From the IMG/VR virus record IMGVR_UViG_3300047299_000103, positions 1 through 24,368 of that record: a stretch of DNA of 24,368 nucleotides; one strand, written 5' to 3'. The stretch's first letter is position 1; each line of letters opens with the position of its first letter. A program made the translations under genes and the position numbers. Origin of the DNA: a virus. Below, piece by piece: positions 4,450 to 24,295 of this stretch. The notes under the pieces are model-generated. The model saw only the letters and a program-made list of their open reading frames with translations. It was not told the DNA's origin and did no database searches.

Positions 4450-4734
4450 CTACTGATTATATTCTGTAAAGATGTTCGACCACTTTTTAAGTTTTTCGCG
4501 TTTGGCTTCTGCATATTGTCTTACTTCTTGGGGATATACAATATCCAACTCATACATAAGTTCAATCATAGCTTGCAAGTCGCCTAGCTCTTCTGCTAAG
4601 TGTTGTCTATTAGTAAGTGGTTTATTGGGCTTTTTATTGTCCAGGCCAAAGCGGCTGATTTTGCTAACTGCAACAATCACTTCACCGCATTCTTCCTGGA
4701 GAATATCCAGGGCTTCTTTTTGCTTTGAATGCAT
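4450..4734 (-). CDS. MazG-like nucleotide pyrophosphohydrolase
   Basis: All-alpha NTP pyrophosphatase of the MazG/dUTPase superfamily, which hydrolyses NTPs to NMP and pyrophosphate. Metal-binding residues are visible as LQEECGEVIVAV (EExxE, about residues 12-23) and HLAEELGDLQAM (ExxD, about 45-56). The 94-aa length fits single-domain phage MazG proteins. In phages such enzymes are proposed to affect (p)ppGpp or dNTP pools. The start overlaps the clpS stop (TAATG). It ends in TAG, followed two codons later by TGA, so suppression would add only three residues. Confidence 0.85.
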   Translation of the reverse strand: MHSKQKEALDILQEECGEVIVAVSKISRFGLDNKKPNKPLTNRQHLAEELGDLQAMIELMYELDIVYPQEVRQYAEAKREKLKKWSNIFTEYNQ

Positions 4735-5039
4735 TATTCTGATTCTAAATTAATGTTAAGGGGGTGCCCATTTGTGCGGGCTAAGTATGTTGCTTCACTG
4801 TGCTTTTGTTCTGCAACTTCAAATGTATAAATGCCTGCAATACCACGGCCTAATTCGTGAATTTCCATGGTTGTTTTTGCGGCTGCGTCTTCATCGTGAT
4901 GGAAAACTGCTTTAAGCAAATCAATAACAAAGTCCATTGGAGTTGCATCGTCGTTATTAAAAACAACTTTATACATACTTGGACGCTTAATAACTACGTC
5001 TTGTTTAGTTGATTGACTGGTTTCTGCCATTACACTCAT
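4734..5039 (-). CDS. clpS: ClpS adaptor for N-degron degradation
   Basis: ClpS binds proteins with N-terminal Leu, Phe, Tyr or Trp and delivers them to ClpAP. The family core is clear: YKVVFNNDDATPMDFVIDLL (about residues 23-42), with the Asn-Asp-Asp, Thr-Pro-Met and downstream His (EIHELGRGIAGIYTFEVAE) that build the N-degron pocket, and ARTNGHPL near the C-terminus. The 101-aa length is normal. ClpS normally works with ClpA, which is not in the window, so it should act on host ClpAP. The start could be the ATG at 5037-5039 or the one nine bases downstream. A GATAAATACT box lies just upstream. Confidence 0.92.
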   Translation of the reverse strand: MSVMAETSQSTKQDVVIKRPSMYKVVFNNDDATPMDFVIDLLKAVFHHDEDAAAKTTMEIHELGRGIAGIYTFEVAEQKHSEATYLARTNGHPLNINLESE

Positions 5040-5053
5040 TTTTATCTTTCAAA

Positions 5054-5063
5054 AGTATTTATC
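5054..5063 (-). promoter_or_regulatory. Late-promoter-like box upstream of clpS
   Basis: Minus-strand GATAAATACT, one base away from the T4 late consensus TATAAATA, placed about 15 bp before the clpS ATG and directly after the hairpin that ends the heat-shock gene. The ATAAATACT extension recurs at 4413-4421 and 20456-20464. Confidence 0.45.
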
Positions 5064-5066
5064 AAA

Positions 5067-5084
5067 GGGGGCGGTTATGCCCCC
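5067..5084 (-). terminator. GC-rich hairpin after the Hsp20 gene
   Basis: Minus-strand GGGGGC, loop ATAACC, GCCCCC, followed by TTTGAT. A strong 6-bp GC stem with a short T run ten bases after the Hsp20 stop; probably an intrinsic terminator, although the U-tract is weak. Confidence 0.6.
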
Positions 5085-5093
5085 GAATTTTGG

Positions 5094-5540
5094 TTATTCC
5101 TTATCGTATCCTACAACTTGAACCTTACGTGGTTTAAGTGCTTCGGGAACGACTCGGGTAATTGCAATGCAAAGAACTCCATCTTTAATAGATGCTTGTC
5201 CTACTTCCATATGTTGAGCGAGAGTTAAACTCTTTTCAAAATTACGATAAGCAAGACCTCGATGTAAATACTCAAATTTACTTTCGTCTTCTGTCATTCC
5301 AATAGTCTTTTCACCTCGAATGGTTAGTAAGTTTTGGTTAACTTCTACATCAATTTCGCTAATATTGAATCCGGCAACTGCAATTTCGATTACATAGTTG
5401 TCTTCATCTTTCTTAACAATATTGTATGGGGGATAAGTTTGGTTTGTATTCAAACGTTCGGTGAACATTCTGTCAAAACCTACAAGTGCTCTGTTTAGTT
5501 GATTTAGAGCGGTAGTGTCAAATCGTGTTAATGCGTTCAT
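5094..5540 (-). CDS. Small heat-shock protein (Hsp20/IbpA family)
   Basis: An alpha-crystallin-domain holdase that binds unfolding proteins and hands them to ATP-dependent chaperones. The IbpA-like N-terminus is MNALTRFDTTALNQLNRALV, the crystallin domain starts at YPPYNIVKKDEDNYVIEIAVAGF and ends with the conserved DGVLCI and a short C-terminal extension KPRKVQVV. I chose the ATG at 5538-5540 because AAGGAG lies six bases before it; the frame extends seven codons further upstream, but that would place the SD inside the gene. Such genes occur in many T4-like phages. A TATAAATA late-type box and a structured leader lie upstream. Confidence 0.92.
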   Translation of the reverse strand: MNALTRFDTTALNQLNRALVGFDRMFTERLNTNQTYPPYNIVKKDEDNYVIEIAVAGFNISEIDVEVNQNLLTIRGEKTIGMTEDESKFEYLHRGLAYRNFEKSLTLAQHMEVGQASIKDGVLCIAITRVVPEALKPRKVQVVGYDKE

Positions 5541-5546
5541 TGTATT

Positions 5547-5568
5547 CTCCTTTTTAAGCAAGAACGAG
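5547..5568 (-). promoter_or_regulatory. Possible SD-masking hairpin in the hsp20 leader
   Basis: In the leader, minus-strand CTCGTTCTT (5568-5560) can pair with AAAAAGGAG (5555-5547), covering the ribosome-binding site with two mismatches, one of them G opposite G, across a four-base loop. RNA thermometers of the ROSE or fourU type control many bacterial hsp20 genes in this way. The pairing is weak and was drawn by hand. Confidence 0.25.
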
Positions 5569-5585
5569 CTGGGCGATGTGCCCTA

Positions 5586-5622
5586 TATGCAACCCTATTG
5601 GCGTTGCATAGTTATATTTATA
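5586..5622 (-). promoter_or_regulatory. T4-late-type TATAAATA box and leader hairpin for hsp20
   Basis: Minus-strand TATAAATA (5622-5615) exactly matches the late promoter consensus of T4. It is followed by a perfect 8-bp inverted repeat TATGCAAC/GTTGCATA (5603-5610 with 5586-5593, 9-nt loop). The hairpin may also help end the transcript of the 110-aa gene upstream, but it has no T run. Confidence 0.5.
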
Positions 5623-5630
5623 CGCTAATT

Positions 5631-5963
5631 TCATTCGTCTGTCAACGGGCTTTTTGCCAATTCTAACAAGAACTTATATTCATCATATGCTGTTTTAACG
5701 GCAGGATGGTTGTGTCGTATTTTGGCTTCTTCCAGCATGATCTTTTCCAATTTTTCTAATCTAGTGGTTAACTGATCAATCGTTACAGGACTTGTAATTG
5801 AACTTGCCATGTTAGTATACGGCATTGTCTGGGCAATGATGCCTGTTGTTACATCTGTATTGTGTGCCCATACAAATTCAACAGGTCCTACCGAAGATAA
5901 ATCAATCGAAAAAGAATCTTCTTTATTGCCGGGCATATTAGTATAACTTTTTTGGTAATGCAT
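5631..5963 (-). CDS. Unknown phage protein (110 aa)
   Basis: A soluble protein with an N-terminal segment SYTNMPGNKEDSFSIDLSSV, a central SPVTIDQLTTRLEKLEKIM that looks like a short coiled coil, and a helical tail. No domain recognised. I prefer the ATG at 5961-5963; an in-frame GTG nine bases upstream is also possible. The gene overlaps the 3' end of the bS21 gene by 26 bases and is the last member of the ClpX-IF3-bS21 cluster, so it is probably co-translated with it. Confidence 0.75.
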   Translation of the reverse strand: MHYQKSYTNMPGNKEDSFSIDLSSVGPVEFVWAHNTDVTTGIIAQTMPYTNMASSITSPVTIDQLTTRLEKLEKIMLEEAKIRHNHPAVKTAYDEYKFLLELAKSPLTDE

Positions 5964-6174
5964 CTGCTTCACGCTTTTTTTGTGCTCTGCGTGCTTGCTG
6001 ATTTTTAGTTTTGCGTTTTGTTACGCTGGGCTTTTCGTAAAACTCTTTTTCTCTAAGTTCTACTAGCTTGCCGCTTTCCATGATCTTCTTCTTGAAAATA
6101 CGTAATGCTTTTTCCCAATTATCGTTTTGTACCAAAACAGTACTACCCATCAATGGACCGTGTTTTTTACTCAT
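5938..6174 (-). CDS. rpsU: Ribosomal protein bS21
   Basis: Phage-encoded homologue of bS21, the last protein added to the 30S subunit, lying by the 3' end of 16S rRNA where the anti-Shine-Dalgarno sequence is. The family core is clear: NDNWEKALRIFKKKIMESGK (about residues 18-37), LVELREKEFYEKPSV and a highly basic C-terminal tail KRKTKNQQARRAQKKREA. The 78-aa length is close to the usual 70 or so, with an N-terminal extension of about eight residues. The ATG overlaps the infC stop (ATGA at 6171-6174). bS21 homologues are known in other large phages and are thought to bias initiation toward phage mRNA. Confidence 0.93.
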   Translation of the reverse strand: MSKKHGPLMGSTVLVQNDNWEKALRIFKKKIMESGKLVELREKEFYEKPSVTKRKTKNQQARRAQKKREADALPKKLY

Positions 6175-6710
6175 TTAGTTTTACCTTGAAATAATGTTGC
6201 AATCATTCTATTACCTTGCATTTCACTAGCACCTTCTAATTTAGCTGCCGGAACTTGGGCTAAAATATTATCTATAATAATTCGACCCTGCGAAGTATTT
6301 GCCATTTCACGACCTCTGAACTTGACTACAATTTTAACTTTGTCGCCTTCGACTAACCATTCCTTGATATGCTTGATTTTAACTTCCAAATCATGCTTAT
6401 CAATTCCAGGGCGTAGCTGAACTTCTTTTAGTTCAATTCTACTTTCTCTGGACTTTTTGTCTTGTTCTTTCTGACGCTTTTGCAAATCATACTTATACTT
6501 ACCTAAATCTCCAATCTTACAAACAGGCGGATTAGTTGCACCGTTGATTAAGATTAAATCGAGACTTTGATCCTGTGCAGAAGTCAGTGCTCTAAAATAA
6601 GGCCATACCCCCAGGTTGCTGCCATCTGAGCCAATAAGACGTACTTCGCGAGCGCGAATGTCCCTATTAGCTAGAACTCTGTTCTCTTGTCTTCTTTCGT
6701 TTATTGCCAT
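6171..6710 (-). CDS. infC: Translation initiation factor IF-3
   Basis: Full-length IF3 (179 aa) with both domains. The N-terminal domain begins with the hallmark RDIRAREVRLIGSDGSNLGV (about residues 16-35). The linker is Lys-rich, and the C-terminal domain shows KEVQLRPGIDKHDLEVKIKH and VKIVVKFRGREMA. IF3 binds the 30S subunit, blocks premature 50S joining and proofreads the start codon and initiator tRNA. It starts with ATG at 6708-6710, inside the last 44 bases of clpX; host infC genes use the rare AUU to autoregulate, which this copy does not. Weak SD (AAGGA about 13 bases upstream). The adjacent bS21 gene acts at the same ribosomal site. Confidence 0.95.
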   Translation of the reverse strand: MAINERRQENRVLANRDIRAREVRLIGSDGSNLGVWPYFRALTSAQDQSLDLILINGATNPPVCKIGDLGKYKYDLQKRQKEQDKKSRESRIELKEVQLRPGIDKHDLEVKIKHIKEWLVEGDKVKIVVKFRGREMANTSQGRIIIDNILAQVPAAKLEGASEMQGNRMIATLFQGKTK

Positions 6711-7905
6711 ATACTAGTAGTGGTTCCTTGCCTTCTGACACGCTTTCCTCGGTTAATGTAACTCGACTAACATTTTCGTTAGCCAAGTCGGGCAAGACAA
6801 ACTGCGTTTTTAAGAGAACAGATTCCAGTTCTGCTCTAAGGCCGCGGGCACCTAACTTCATCGACACGCATTTTCTTGCAATTGCAAGACTTGCTGCTGG
6901 ATCAATTTCTAATTCTACACCATCCATTGCAAACAATGTTTGATATTGACTGATAATACTATTCTTTGGTTCTTTCATTGCACGTACCAATTGATCTTCG
7001 GTTAGTTCTTCTAACACTGCAATCTTTGGCATTCGGCCTGCAAGTTCGGGAATGATTCCCCATTTAATAACATCATCGTGTATAACTTGCGTTAAGCTAG
7101 CTTTTTTACGACTATCTGTTGTGTTAAAACCAATTGTGGGCTTGTTGTTAAGACGTTTGTTTATAACATCTTCTAATCCCACAAATGCCCCGCCGAGAAT
7201 AAACAAAATATTTTTTGTGTTTATTGTTAGCGTTTCATTGTTAGGATGCTTTCTGCCTCCTCCTTGCGGGACTCGGCATTCTGTACCTTCGATAATTTTT
7301 AACAAGGCTTGTTGCACTCCTTCGCCAGATACGTCTCGGGTAATACTAGTGCCTTCGCTTTTACGACCTTTTTTGTCTATTTCGTCGATGTAAATAATGC
7401 CCTGTTCGCAACGCTCTATGCTGTTTCCTGCTGCTTGATATAATTTGTGAATAACATTTTCTACGTCTTCACCAACATATCCTGCTTCAGTTAAACTAGT
7501 AGCATCGGTAATTGCAAAAGGAACATCTAGGAATTTAGCAATTGTTTTGGCTAGTAAAGTTTTACCCGAACCAGTTGGTCCGATAAACAATACATTACTT
7601 TTTTCAATTTCAACATCGCTTGTATTTTGCAATCGCTTATAGTGATTATATACTGCAACACTAAGCGCAAGTTTTGGATAATCTTGACCAATGATATATT
7701 GATCCAAGTGTTGATAAATCTCCCTGGGCGTGGGCAGATTACTTTTATTAGTTGTCTTTACAACTTCGTCTTTAATAACTTCATTGCAAAGAACAATACA
7801 TTCGTCGCAAATGTAGCCTGTGCTACCTGCAACTAATTTTTTAACTTCGTTTTGACTTTTGTCGCAAAAACTGCAACGCATTAAAGGTTTGGATTTTTCA
7901 GTCAT
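6667..7905 (-). CDS. clpX: ATP-dependent protease ATPase subunit ClpX
   Basis: Complete 412-residue AAA+ unfoldase that feeds tagged proteins to ClpP. The N-terminal zinc-binding domain has C11, C14, C33 and C36. Walker A GPTGSGKT is at 109-116 and Walker B IIYIDEID follows; the pore-1 loop GYVG and the RKH loop (GGGRKHPN) are intact, and an IGF loop (PTIGFN) that docks onto ClpP is kept. It should therefore work with host ClpP; no clpP is present in the window. The ATG overlaps the upstream TGA (ATGA at 7902-7905), and the last 44 bases overlap infC. The tail KRKKTREQSSS differs from typical ClpX ends. The window also encodes a tmRNA whose tag ends MVA, a possible dedicated substrate. Confidence 0.95.
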   Translation of the reverse strand: MTEKSKPLMRCSFCDKSQNEVKKLVAGSTGYICDECIVLCNEVIKDEVVKTTNKSNLPTPREIYQHLDQYIIGQDYPKLALSVAVYNHYKRLQNTSDVEIEKSNVLFIGPTGSGKTLLAKTIAKFLDVPFAITDATSLTEAGYVGEDVENVIHKLYQAAGNSIERCEQGIIYIDEIDKKGRKSEGTSITRDVSGEGVQQALLKIIEGTECRVPQGGGRKHPNNETLTINTKNILFILGGAFVGLEDVINKRLNNKPTIGFNTTDSRKKASLTQVIHDDVIKWGIIPELAGRMPKIAVLEELTEDQLVRAMKEPKNSIISQYQTLFAMDGVELEIDPAASLAIARKCVSMKLGARGLRAELESVLLKTQFVLPDLANENVSRVTLTEESVSEGKEPLLVYGNKRKKTREQSSS

Positions 7906-21452: not shown

Positions 21453-21527
21453 TGGTGCGTTAGGTGGGAATCGAACCCACGATTCAGCGGTTTAGAATCG
21501 CCTGCTATGCCACTTAGCTACTAACGC
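21453..21527 (-). tRNA. Suppressor tRNA, anticodon CUA
   Basis: A complete 75-nt cloverleaf with encoded CCA: perfect acceptor GCGTTAG/CTAACGC, D stem GCTA/TAGC with G18G19, anticodon stem GGCGA/CCGCT, loop TTCTAAA, T stem GTGGG/CCCAC with loop TTCGATT. U33 is followed by CTA (plus-strand 21493-21495), so it reads UAG. G15-C48 fits. Weak points are a G-U pair at 27-43 and an A-C mismatch at 31-39. Variable loop is 5 nt, so it is neither a bacterial Tyr nor a Leu or Ser type. Discriminator is A73. The charged amino acid cannot be read from sequence; C70 excludes the Ala G3-U70 signal. Confidence 0.88.
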
Positions 21528-22613: not shown

Positions 22614-23906
22614 ATGTCAAACTACCAACATCCAGATGATTTAAAATTATTCAACTTGCACCAAACTATGCAATACAACCCCCTCGGGCAACCTGAGATA
22701 AGAGTTGCTGCCCGCTTTGGCGCAGGCGGAGACCCTGCCGTAGGAGGAGGGGGTAATATAAATGCATCAACTGATGCATTTGGAAGACTTCGTGTTAGCA
22801 GTCCGTATACATTATTCGATAGCCAAAATAGATATCGCCTAAACGATAAGTTTAGTTATGGTGCAAGCGGAAGCGGCAGTGCTACATATTTGCCAAATGA
22901 AAGTAGCGTTAGATTAAGCTGTAGTGGTGCTGGTAACGTTATTGCCGAAAGTAAAAGAGTATTTGCATACCAACCGGGCAAAAGTTTACTAATTTACAAT
23001 ACATTTGTATTCAATCAGCCAACAGCTGGGGTCACGCAGCGTGTTGGCTATTTTGGCGCACAAAACGGAATTTATTTAGAACTCGAAAATACTACACTAA
23101 AAATCGTTCGTCGTAGCAGCACATCAGGTAGCGTAATAGATACCGCAGTTTCTCAATCTAATTGGAACGTAGATAAAATGGACGGCACTGGACCAAGCGG
23201 ATTAATCATAGACATTAGCAAGGCACAAATTTTATTCATCGATATAGAATGGCTAGGTGTTGGTAGTGTTAGAACTGGATTTGTTATAAATGGAAATTAT
23301 TATATCACACATGTGTTTAATCATGCCAACTTATTAGACGGTGTTTATATGACTACTGCACGGTTGCCAATTCGTTATGAAATTTCTAGCACTGGACCAA
23401 ACGCTAACATGAAACAAATTTGTAGCAGTGTCATTAGCGAAGGCGGATATAACGCCGCCAACGTAACCGAAACTGCCGGGTTAGGAACTTCTACTAAAAG
23501 ATTAACGACTTTGGGTACGTATTATCCAATGGTTAGCATACGATTAAATGCCAACCGACTAGACAGCATTGTTTTGCCTAGACAAGTAGATGTATTGAGT
23601 CCTACCGTAAATTATTATCGTTGGGTATTAGTGTCAAATGCCACGTTAATAGGAGCAACATGGGCCGGAATAAGTAGCACAGGAACCGTTGATTATGATA
23701 TTGCATCAACTGGGATGAGTGGCGGAGTCGAAATACAAAGCGGCTATATCAGTAGCAGAGAAATGGCTCAGTTAGGTGCAGATGCTTTCCAATTTCAACT
23801 AGGTAGATCTGTTGCAGGCATTAGCGATACTGTAACTTTAGCATTATCGGCAACTGCAAATAATGCAGATGTATTGGCACAAATAGGCTGGGAAGAAATA
23901 GTATAA
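22614..23906 (+). CDS. Phage structural protein (430 aa)
   Basis: Starts MSNYQHPDDLKLFNLHQTMQ with RBS AAAAGGAAGAC 4-5 bases before the ATG. The segment STDAFGRLRVSSPYTLFDSQ (about residues 51-70) is a signature I recognise from virion structural proteins of T4-like phages infecting aquatic bacteria. The rest is Ser/Gly/Thr-rich beta structure, as in tail or baseplate decoration proteins, with an EWLGVGSVRTGFVINGNYY-type block near the middle. The exact virion position cannot be told. The upstream GTAAATACTT may be a degenerate late box. The downstream hairpin (23905-23928) ends it. Confidence 0.8.
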   Translation: MSNYQHPDDLKLFNLHQTMQYNPLGQPEIRVAARFGAGGDPAVGGGGNINASTDAFGRLRVSSPYTLFDSQNRYRLNDKFSYGASGSGSATYLPNESSVRLSCSGAGNVIAESKRVFAYQPGKSLLIYNTFVFNQPTAGVTQRVGYFGAQNGIYLELENTTLKIVRRSSTSGSVIDTAVSQSNWNVDKMDGTGPSGLIIDISKAQILFIDIEWLGVGSVRTGFVINGNYYITHVFNHANLLDGVYMTTARLPIRYEISSTGPNANMKQICSSVISEGGYNAANVTETAGLGTSTKRLTTLGTYYPMVSIRLNANRLDSIVLPRQVDVLSPTVNYYRWVLVSNATLIGATWAGISSTGTVDYDIASTGMSGGVEIQSGYISSREMAQLGADAFQFQLGRSVAGISDTVTLALSATANNADVLAQIGWEEIV

Positions 23907-23928
23907 AAATAGGGACCGAGGTCCCTAT
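23905..23928. terminator. Bidirectional-type terminator between structural gene and tmRNA
   Basis: Perfect 9-bp arms ATAGGGACC/GGTCCCTAT with a 2-nt centre, and a T run on the minus strand. It ends the leftward tmRNA transcript and follows the structural gene stop directly on the other strand. Confidence 0.85.
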
Positions 23929-23929
23929 A

Positions 23930-24260
23930 GCTATTTCCTGTTGCTAGGCATAGTTGCCCCGGTTAGCCTTTTCAGGCCACCATTAGAAACTGTTCGTCGT
24001 TTGCATTTACGTTGTTTTGCTTCTTCGACCAGGTTACCCCAATCCTAACGGCTTCTACCTTGCCGAGCGATAATACATTTACTTGTTGCCTGGTCGATTC
24101 CAGATGACCCCCATCAAAAGCACACTATGGAAGGGTCCATAGTCTTACCCGAAACCTAACGTCGGGGCACATAACCTTTATCGGCGTGCTTTTGGTGGAG
24201 GTCAGGGGATTTGAACCCCTTTGTCAGACACCGTTCTTTATATTACTTTACGCTGTTCAA
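23930..24260 (-). ncRNA. ssrA: Circularly permuted (two-piece) tmRNA
   Basis: tmRNA rescues stalled ribosomes and tags their nascent peptide. Read leftward, the acceptor piece comes first: T arm GGGG-TTCAAAT-CCCC and GACCTCC-A-CCA, with the 3' end at 24193. After about 80 nt of intervening sequence comes the 5' piece at 24112: GGGGGTCATCTGGAATCGACC, typical of a tmRNA 5' end. The two ends pair as a 7-bp acceptor stem GGGGGTC/GACCTCC including the G3-U70 pair that marks Ala tRNA. The tag frame GCA AAC GAC GAA CAG TTT CTA ATG GTG GCC TGA (24004-23972) encodes ANDEQFLMVA. Normal tags end in LAA or VAA; this one ends in MVA. The exact 3' end of the coding piece is uncertain. Known permuted tmRNAs occur in alphaproteobacteria, some cyanobacteria and some betaproteobacteria. 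Confidence 0.92.
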
Positions 24261-24266
24261 GTATTT

Positions 24267-24295
24267 ATTATATACTTGTTTTTCCTGCTTGTCAA
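24267..24295 (-). promoter_or_regulatory. Perfect consensus promoter of the tmRNA
   Basis: Minus-strand TTGACA (24295-24290), exactly 17 bp, TATAAT (24272-24267). A transcript would start near 24260, at the beginning of the acceptor piece. A late-like ATAAATACT follows the -10 box, so late expression is also possible. Confidence 0.88.

Follow-up and report, generated by a model that had tools for sequence, protein, structure and literature searches.

A complete gene for a circularly permuted, two-piece tmRNA was identified on the minus strand (24260-23909) of a 24,368-bp virus record, which was analysed over its whole length (the window in what follows) and is probably a fragment. The tag encoded by this gene, ANDEQFLMVA, ends in LMVA instead of the usual ALAA; together with LMAA, this ending forms a family that is common in phage tmRNAs and absent from the host-type bacteria searched. 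The locus is best explained as a working phage-encoded tmRNA which would rescue ribosomes during infection and whose tag would remain a degradation signal, a reading to which we assign a probability of roughly 0.6. Because their final residues are read by proteases, tmRNA tags rank with the most strongly conserved short peptides in bacteria. Frequent use by phages of a tail class that is missing from the host-type genomes searched would imply that viruses carry a rescue system of their own with an altered fate for the tagged proteins, and it provides a simple handle on why phages carry tmRNA at all.

The gene was called both by ARAGORN, as a permuted tmRNA (23881-24286, minus strand) with the tag ANDEQFLMVA, and by the Rfam covariance model RF04321 (tmRNA_permuted), which matched 23972-24254 of the minus strand over the full length of the model (74.1 bits, E 9e-13), exceeding its gathering score of 47; the pseudoknots of the mRNA-like part form no part of this model. 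It is preceded by a sigma-70 promoter (TTGACA-17 nt-TATAAT, 24267-24295, minus strand) that agrees with the consensus at 12 of 12 positions and has a spacer of 17 nt, and all elements described below were read on the same strand in the order acceptor piece with CCA, spacer, 5' piece with tag frame, P5 and terminator. The acceptor (3') piece (24193-24254), delimited by the RF04321 match and direct reading, comprises a P2 strand, a T-arm (AGGGG-TTCAAAT-CCCCT, 24220-24204) with a 5-bp T-stem, the acceptor 3' strand GACCTCC (24203-24197) and an encoded ACCA (24196-24193). An intervening spacer of exactly 80 nt (24113-24192) separates it from the 5' piece, which starts with the acceptor 5' strand GGGGGTC (24106-24112) and continues (24088-24105) with a D-loop-like ATCTGGAATCGA and then the P2 strand CAGGC (24092-24088), which pairs with GTCTG (24229-24225) of the acceptor piece. 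The tag reading frame (23972-24004; GCA AAC GAC GAA CAG TTT CTA ATG GTG GCC TGA) was obtained from ARAGORN and by direct reading, and its stop codon lies in the loop of a P5-type hairpin (23961-23981) formed by folding of GGTGGCC..GGCTAACC. An intrinsic terminator (ATAGGGACC-TC-GGTCCCTAT, 23909-23928) followed by a T-run ends the gene. No alternative placing of the tag frame yields an LAA end. The initial annotation, which had described a phage-borne, two-piece tmRNA with an acceptor piece preceding the 5' piece and a tag ending in MVA, was thus upheld by both programs and by direct reading.

The two separately encoded pieces are joined by an acceptor stem of 7 bp, all of them paired, with G3-U70; this stem, the 80-nt spacer and their coordinates, as previously proposed, were all confirmed by direct reading. 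Comparison of 19 distinct tmRNAs for which both acceptor strands could be found with a simple pattern (L326 being probably mis-assigned by that pattern) showed that the strands pair well in 18, at separations of up to 183 nt. Covariation was identified among these 18 well-paired tmRNAs, with pair 4 being G-C or C-G, pair 5 C-G, A-T or G-C, and pair 7 mostly G-C with some C-G, while pair 3 is always G-T.

The score of the window's tmRNA is modest, at 74 bits versus about 137 for the best relative, and this would be compatible with a decayed or non-functional copy acquired by chance. RF01850 (beta_tmRNA) gave no match on the window at or above its gathering threshold of 84, a threshold passed by the relatives L005 (116 bits) and L004 (89.6 bits). 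Moreover, the strand of the acceptor piece 5' of the T-arm fits the RF04321 model poorly, and the unaided RNA folding energy of the locus was not significant (z about -1). However, promoter, terminator, 7-bp stem, T-arm, CCA and tag frame are all intact, and the tag and its neighbourhood are conserved in other phages, rendering decay of the gene highly improbable.

Downstream, on the opposite strand, the tmRNA gene is converged upon by a gene for a virion structural protein (22614-23906, plus strand; phrog_1645, E 2.4e-110). The minus strand of the window also encodes a phage ClpX (6667-7905) with a zinc-binding domain, canonical pore-1, pore-2 and RKH loops and an IGF motif, a translation initiation factor IF-3 (6171-6710), a ribosomal protein bS21 (5938-6174) and a ClpS adaptor (4734-5039), and the window further codes for Hsp20, a SprT-like protein, NAMPT, NadM-Nudix and radical-SAM proteins. 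The block ClpX-IF3-bS21-Hsp20-ClpS (4734-7905, minus strand) is found repeatedly in large phage contigs, and ClpP is additionally encoded by several of these. Among 28 phage records examined, ClpP was present in nine and SmpB in none, so that SmpB is probably provided by the host. The identical tag was found on a 320-kb contig (G004), where the radical-SAM gene that directly follows the tmRNA is the same as that of the window, with genes for NadM-Nudix and NAMPT coming next; this contig also encodes ClpX, ClpP and a terminase. The MVA-ending gene thus resides in at least one jumbo phage. Bacterial contamination was ruled out by the adjoining virion gene and by the terminase encoded on the 320-kb contig, which shares the tag.

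A tRNA with the anticodon CUA and an encoded CCA was also observed in the window (21453-21527, minus strand; reported as 'tRNA-Pyl' by ARAGORN, 63 bits with the Rfam tRNA model), and is likely to be an amber suppressor. Stop codons of 38 chosen ORFs of the window were TAA (22), TGA (14) and TAG (2).

For a working tmRNA of this anatomy, the strong promoter of its own would allow transcription by host RNA polymerase, and the 80-nt spacer would be cut out by tRNA-processing enzymes, by analogy with what is described in PMC11915505. The two resulting pieces would be held together by the acceptor stem and P2, alanine would presumably be charged by way of G3-U70, and, using host SmpB, the RNA would rescue stalled ribosomes during infection with the addition of (A)ANDEQFLMVA.

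The exact tag was found on seven more viral contigs. A chance or mis-framed tag was ruled out by its conservation in independent contigs. A blastn search of the tmRNA locus against 50,697 phage records gave no tmRNA relative. The pattern ANDx..xM[VA]A matched 108 stretches in IMG/VR, most of which were confirmed by ARAGORN as permuted tmRNAs. Among the sequences identified there, at least 61 different tmRNA-like ones have an LM[AV]A end, nearly all permuted tmRNAs but including a few (e.g. L304) from an enterobacterial element not recognised as tmRNA; their commonest tags were ANDERFLMAA, ANDEKFLMAA, ANDEAFLMAA, ANDEQFLMVA and ANDNAFLMAA. When viral tags were sampled by the front of the tag only (n=103, partly drawn from the enterobacterial element), 81 ended in LAA, eight in M[AV]A and 14 otherwise, the respective counts among the 10-residue tags of this sample being 15, eight and eight.

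It had been considered that many host tmRNAs might already end in MVA. A search for the MVA form in 84,980 species genomes gave six sequence matches, bacterial and archaeal, and ARAGORN found no tmRNA at any of them. The M[VA]A form had a single match among 399 Burkholderiales genomes, in a non-tmRNA place (0/399 as tmRNA), and the sole match among 299 Pseudomonadota genomes was this same place; the absence of M[VA]A from host-type bacteria holds for these 399 and 299 genomes. An xLAA-type pattern was present in 79 of 100 Burkholderiales genomes, or about 78 given that at least one match is not tmRNA-like. The tag of one Burkholderiales genome (G032), ANDEQFALAA, shares its front half with that of the window, in line with the earlier observation of a betaproteobacterial front combined with a tail that departs from the host type.

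Within the 61 distinct LM[AV]A sequences, Leu codons vary (TTG/CTA/TTA/CTG) and Ala uses all four GCN codons while the residues stay the same, which suggests selection on the peptide; the constant ATG codon is uninformative, as the pattern used for sampling fixes Met. A tree constructed from the 150 nt that precede the tag in 87 sequences, with the tag itself left out, separates nine bacterial RNAs from most of those of phages (support 100/99), and the permuted tmRNA of one bacterial genome (G082, tag ANDENFALAA) groups among the phage RNAs. MVA tails are scattered over this tree, which requires LAA and LM[AV]A to have been exchanged at least 13 times, with well-supported branches forcing five of these switches. 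Because of the short alignment and probable recombination, the tree shows the lability of the tail and not its exact history.

Such repeated switching would also be in keeping with neutral drift, in which the P5 hairpin would be the main influence on the tail and degradation would hardly be affected; this hairpin extends into the final codons of the tag, and covariation is seen in its partner strand. However, it is the residues that are conserved and not the bases, only two main tail motifs recur, and ALAA is kept by hosts with the same P5 layout. Drift is consequently regarded as improbable.

The tag pattern also brought up a strongly conserved, unannotated RNA element (GTTTTCGTC..TTTGCGG..ACTGACCACAAAGATAAATGCAAACGAT-tag-TAA..AATTCGGCGCACTGGCCCGGTGTGATTAATAA) of enterobacterial phages and prophages, which occurs in Ackermannviridae and in lambdoid prophages, in the latter between antiterminator and holin. 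A resume site resembling that of tmRNAs is present in this element, and its 10-aa tags, which do not end in LAA and whose codons vary synonymously, are ANDEQFLAVA, ANDDLMLMAA, ANDDVVLMAA, ANDDLMMVAA and ANDNAYLMVA. Its loci are L123:6050-6620 and L044:1960-2520 (both minus strand), L059, L127, L088, L304/L368 (Serratia phage phiMAM1) and L369-L374, and in E. coli YP3 (NZ_CP072687, about 3.3717-3.3721 Mb; L375) it is situated in a lambdoid prophage between antitermination and holin genes. DNA similar to at least part of a 451-base query of the element was found in 1,422 of 5,426 complete E. coli genomes, and DNA similar to part of the Serratia phage region in 367 phage records, mostly with enterobacterial hosts. 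ARAGORN identified no tmRNA in the element, and Rfam gave sub-threshold tmRNA matches only, of which the highest-scoring (33.5 bits) was to permuted tmRNA, in Erwinia phage phiEa2809. In L123, L041 and L127, flanking pairs GGTAAGRGCATT ... AGTGCTCTTWCC are found up- and downstream of the tag element, and long stems enclosing inserts of high variability could arise from these pairs. One such insert (L076) contains a T-loop-like GGGTTCGAATCCC.

With regard to degradation, the tag ends in MVA and not in the C-terminal LAA of the canonical ssrA degron. The C-terminal alanine and carboxylate of ssrA are bound directly by ClpX (PMC7652416), and this final Ala is retained in ANDEQFLMVA. For E. coli, the final Ala-Ala was described as the main anchor, with changes of the penultimate Ala raising KM and changes of Leu doing so modestly (PMC7652416), and degradation of the MVA tag may be weaker for this reason. 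The nearest measured variant, LVA, is nonetheless reported to be less stable than AAV and ASV and is classed together with LAA (PMC9097571), it is degraded efficiently (PMC9097571, PMC11003136), and LVA reporters in Salmonella turn over even without ClpXP (PMC11003136). Slower degradation, as had been suggested in the initial annotation, is therefore less likely, and in all likelihood FLMVA would continue to act as a degron, perhaps one favoured by other proteases than usual.

A further-reaching explanation is that phages repeatedly rebuild the tmRNA degron, as LM[AV]A and independently as LAVA, LMAA and MVAA in the enterobacterial RNA, thereby uncoupling rescue from host ClpXP. The LM[AV]A tail would then have been selected to weaken handling by host ClpXP or SspB, with ribosomes still being freed by rescue but tagged phage proteins lasting longer or being sent to FtsH or Lon instead. 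The commonness of this tail class in phages as opposed to the host-type genomes searched, the recurrent switches on the tree, the likewise LAA-avoiding ends of an unrelated enterobacterial phage RNA and the higher KM upon change of the penultimate Ala are all consistent with this explanation. The rapid degradation of LVA, the retention of ALAA in many phages including close relatives, and the limited tree support with likely recombination of the RNA argue against it, and we consider it tentative and on balance unlikely, although better placed than drift.

It had also been suggested that the tag might be degraded only by the phage's own ClpX. A tag read specifically by phage ClpX, or by a phage ClpXP in relatives, would be in keeping with the presence of ClpX in both the window and the 320-kb contig and of ClpP in several relatives, and in the ClpX of the 320-kb LMVA phage (C1:146205-147407, L363:6205-7407) the RKH loop reads KKH. 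However, the residues of ClpX that bind ssrA, namely Tyr153, Val154, Thr199, Val202, Arg228 and His230 (PMC7652416), are all kept in the ClpX of the window (Y153, V154, T199, V202, R228, H230). Most relatives with ALAA tags also keep these six residues, and the ClpX proteins that deviate are those of L137 (Ser for Thr199), L138 (RRH for RKH) and the 320-kb phage (KKH for RKH). Furthermore, relatives with the ClpX-IF3-bS21-ClpS block have the tags ANDSQFALAA, ANDEVFALAA and ANDEQFALAA, and the large contigs with LM[AV]A that were tested (mostly fragments) for the most part showed no ClpX, among them the complete genome of phiMAM1, whose LM[AV]A element is not a recognised tmRNA. A rule pairing ClpX with tag type was looked for and not found. 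With ALAA occurring alongside the same ClpX block and LM[AV]A occurring without detected ClpX, the tail does not track phage ClpX, and exclusive degradation by the phage enzyme is very improbable, more so than drift. The preferred reading thus remains that of a working phage tmRNA with a tag that would still act as a degron.

Two-piece tmRNAs in phages and tags not ending in LAA are already known, and what appears to be new here is the LM[AV]A tail class. In one survey (PMC9004378), 53 of the 133 unique tmRNA structures from phages were of the two-piece kind, and the current database lists 79 phage tmRNA sequences (PMC11915505). The tags ANDEQFLMVA, ANDERFLMAA, ANDEKFLMAA and ANDNAFLMAA were absent from the literature searched, the tmRNA Website tag list lying outside that search. 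The closest known system is the permuted tmRNA of betaproteobacteria (RF04321, and relatives in RF01850), with which the window's tmRNA shares its gene order, the G3-U70 stem joining the pieces, the T-arm, the resume site TAAAT-GCA AAC GAC, the stop codon in the P5 loop and a 10-aa tag with an AND front; it differs in being phage-borne, in having LMVA in place of ALAA and in scoring below the RF01850 gathering threshold. The tmRNA of methylophage Melnitz (PMC9004378) is likewise two-piece and phage-borne, but is of the alphaproteobacterial type with a glutamine riboswitch, whereas that of the window is of the betaproteobacterial type and has a tail class that the literature searched does not name. 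Among the engineered ssrA variants LVA, AAV and ASV (PMC9097571, PMC11003136), LVA shares the penultimate Val and final Ala of the window's tag, which is natural and has Met for Leu at -3 and Leu for Ala at -4. Tags of Mollicutes, recognised by Lon (PMC9382460), are also natural and do not end in LAA, but these have the sequence NYAFA and represent a lineage-wide bacterial trait.
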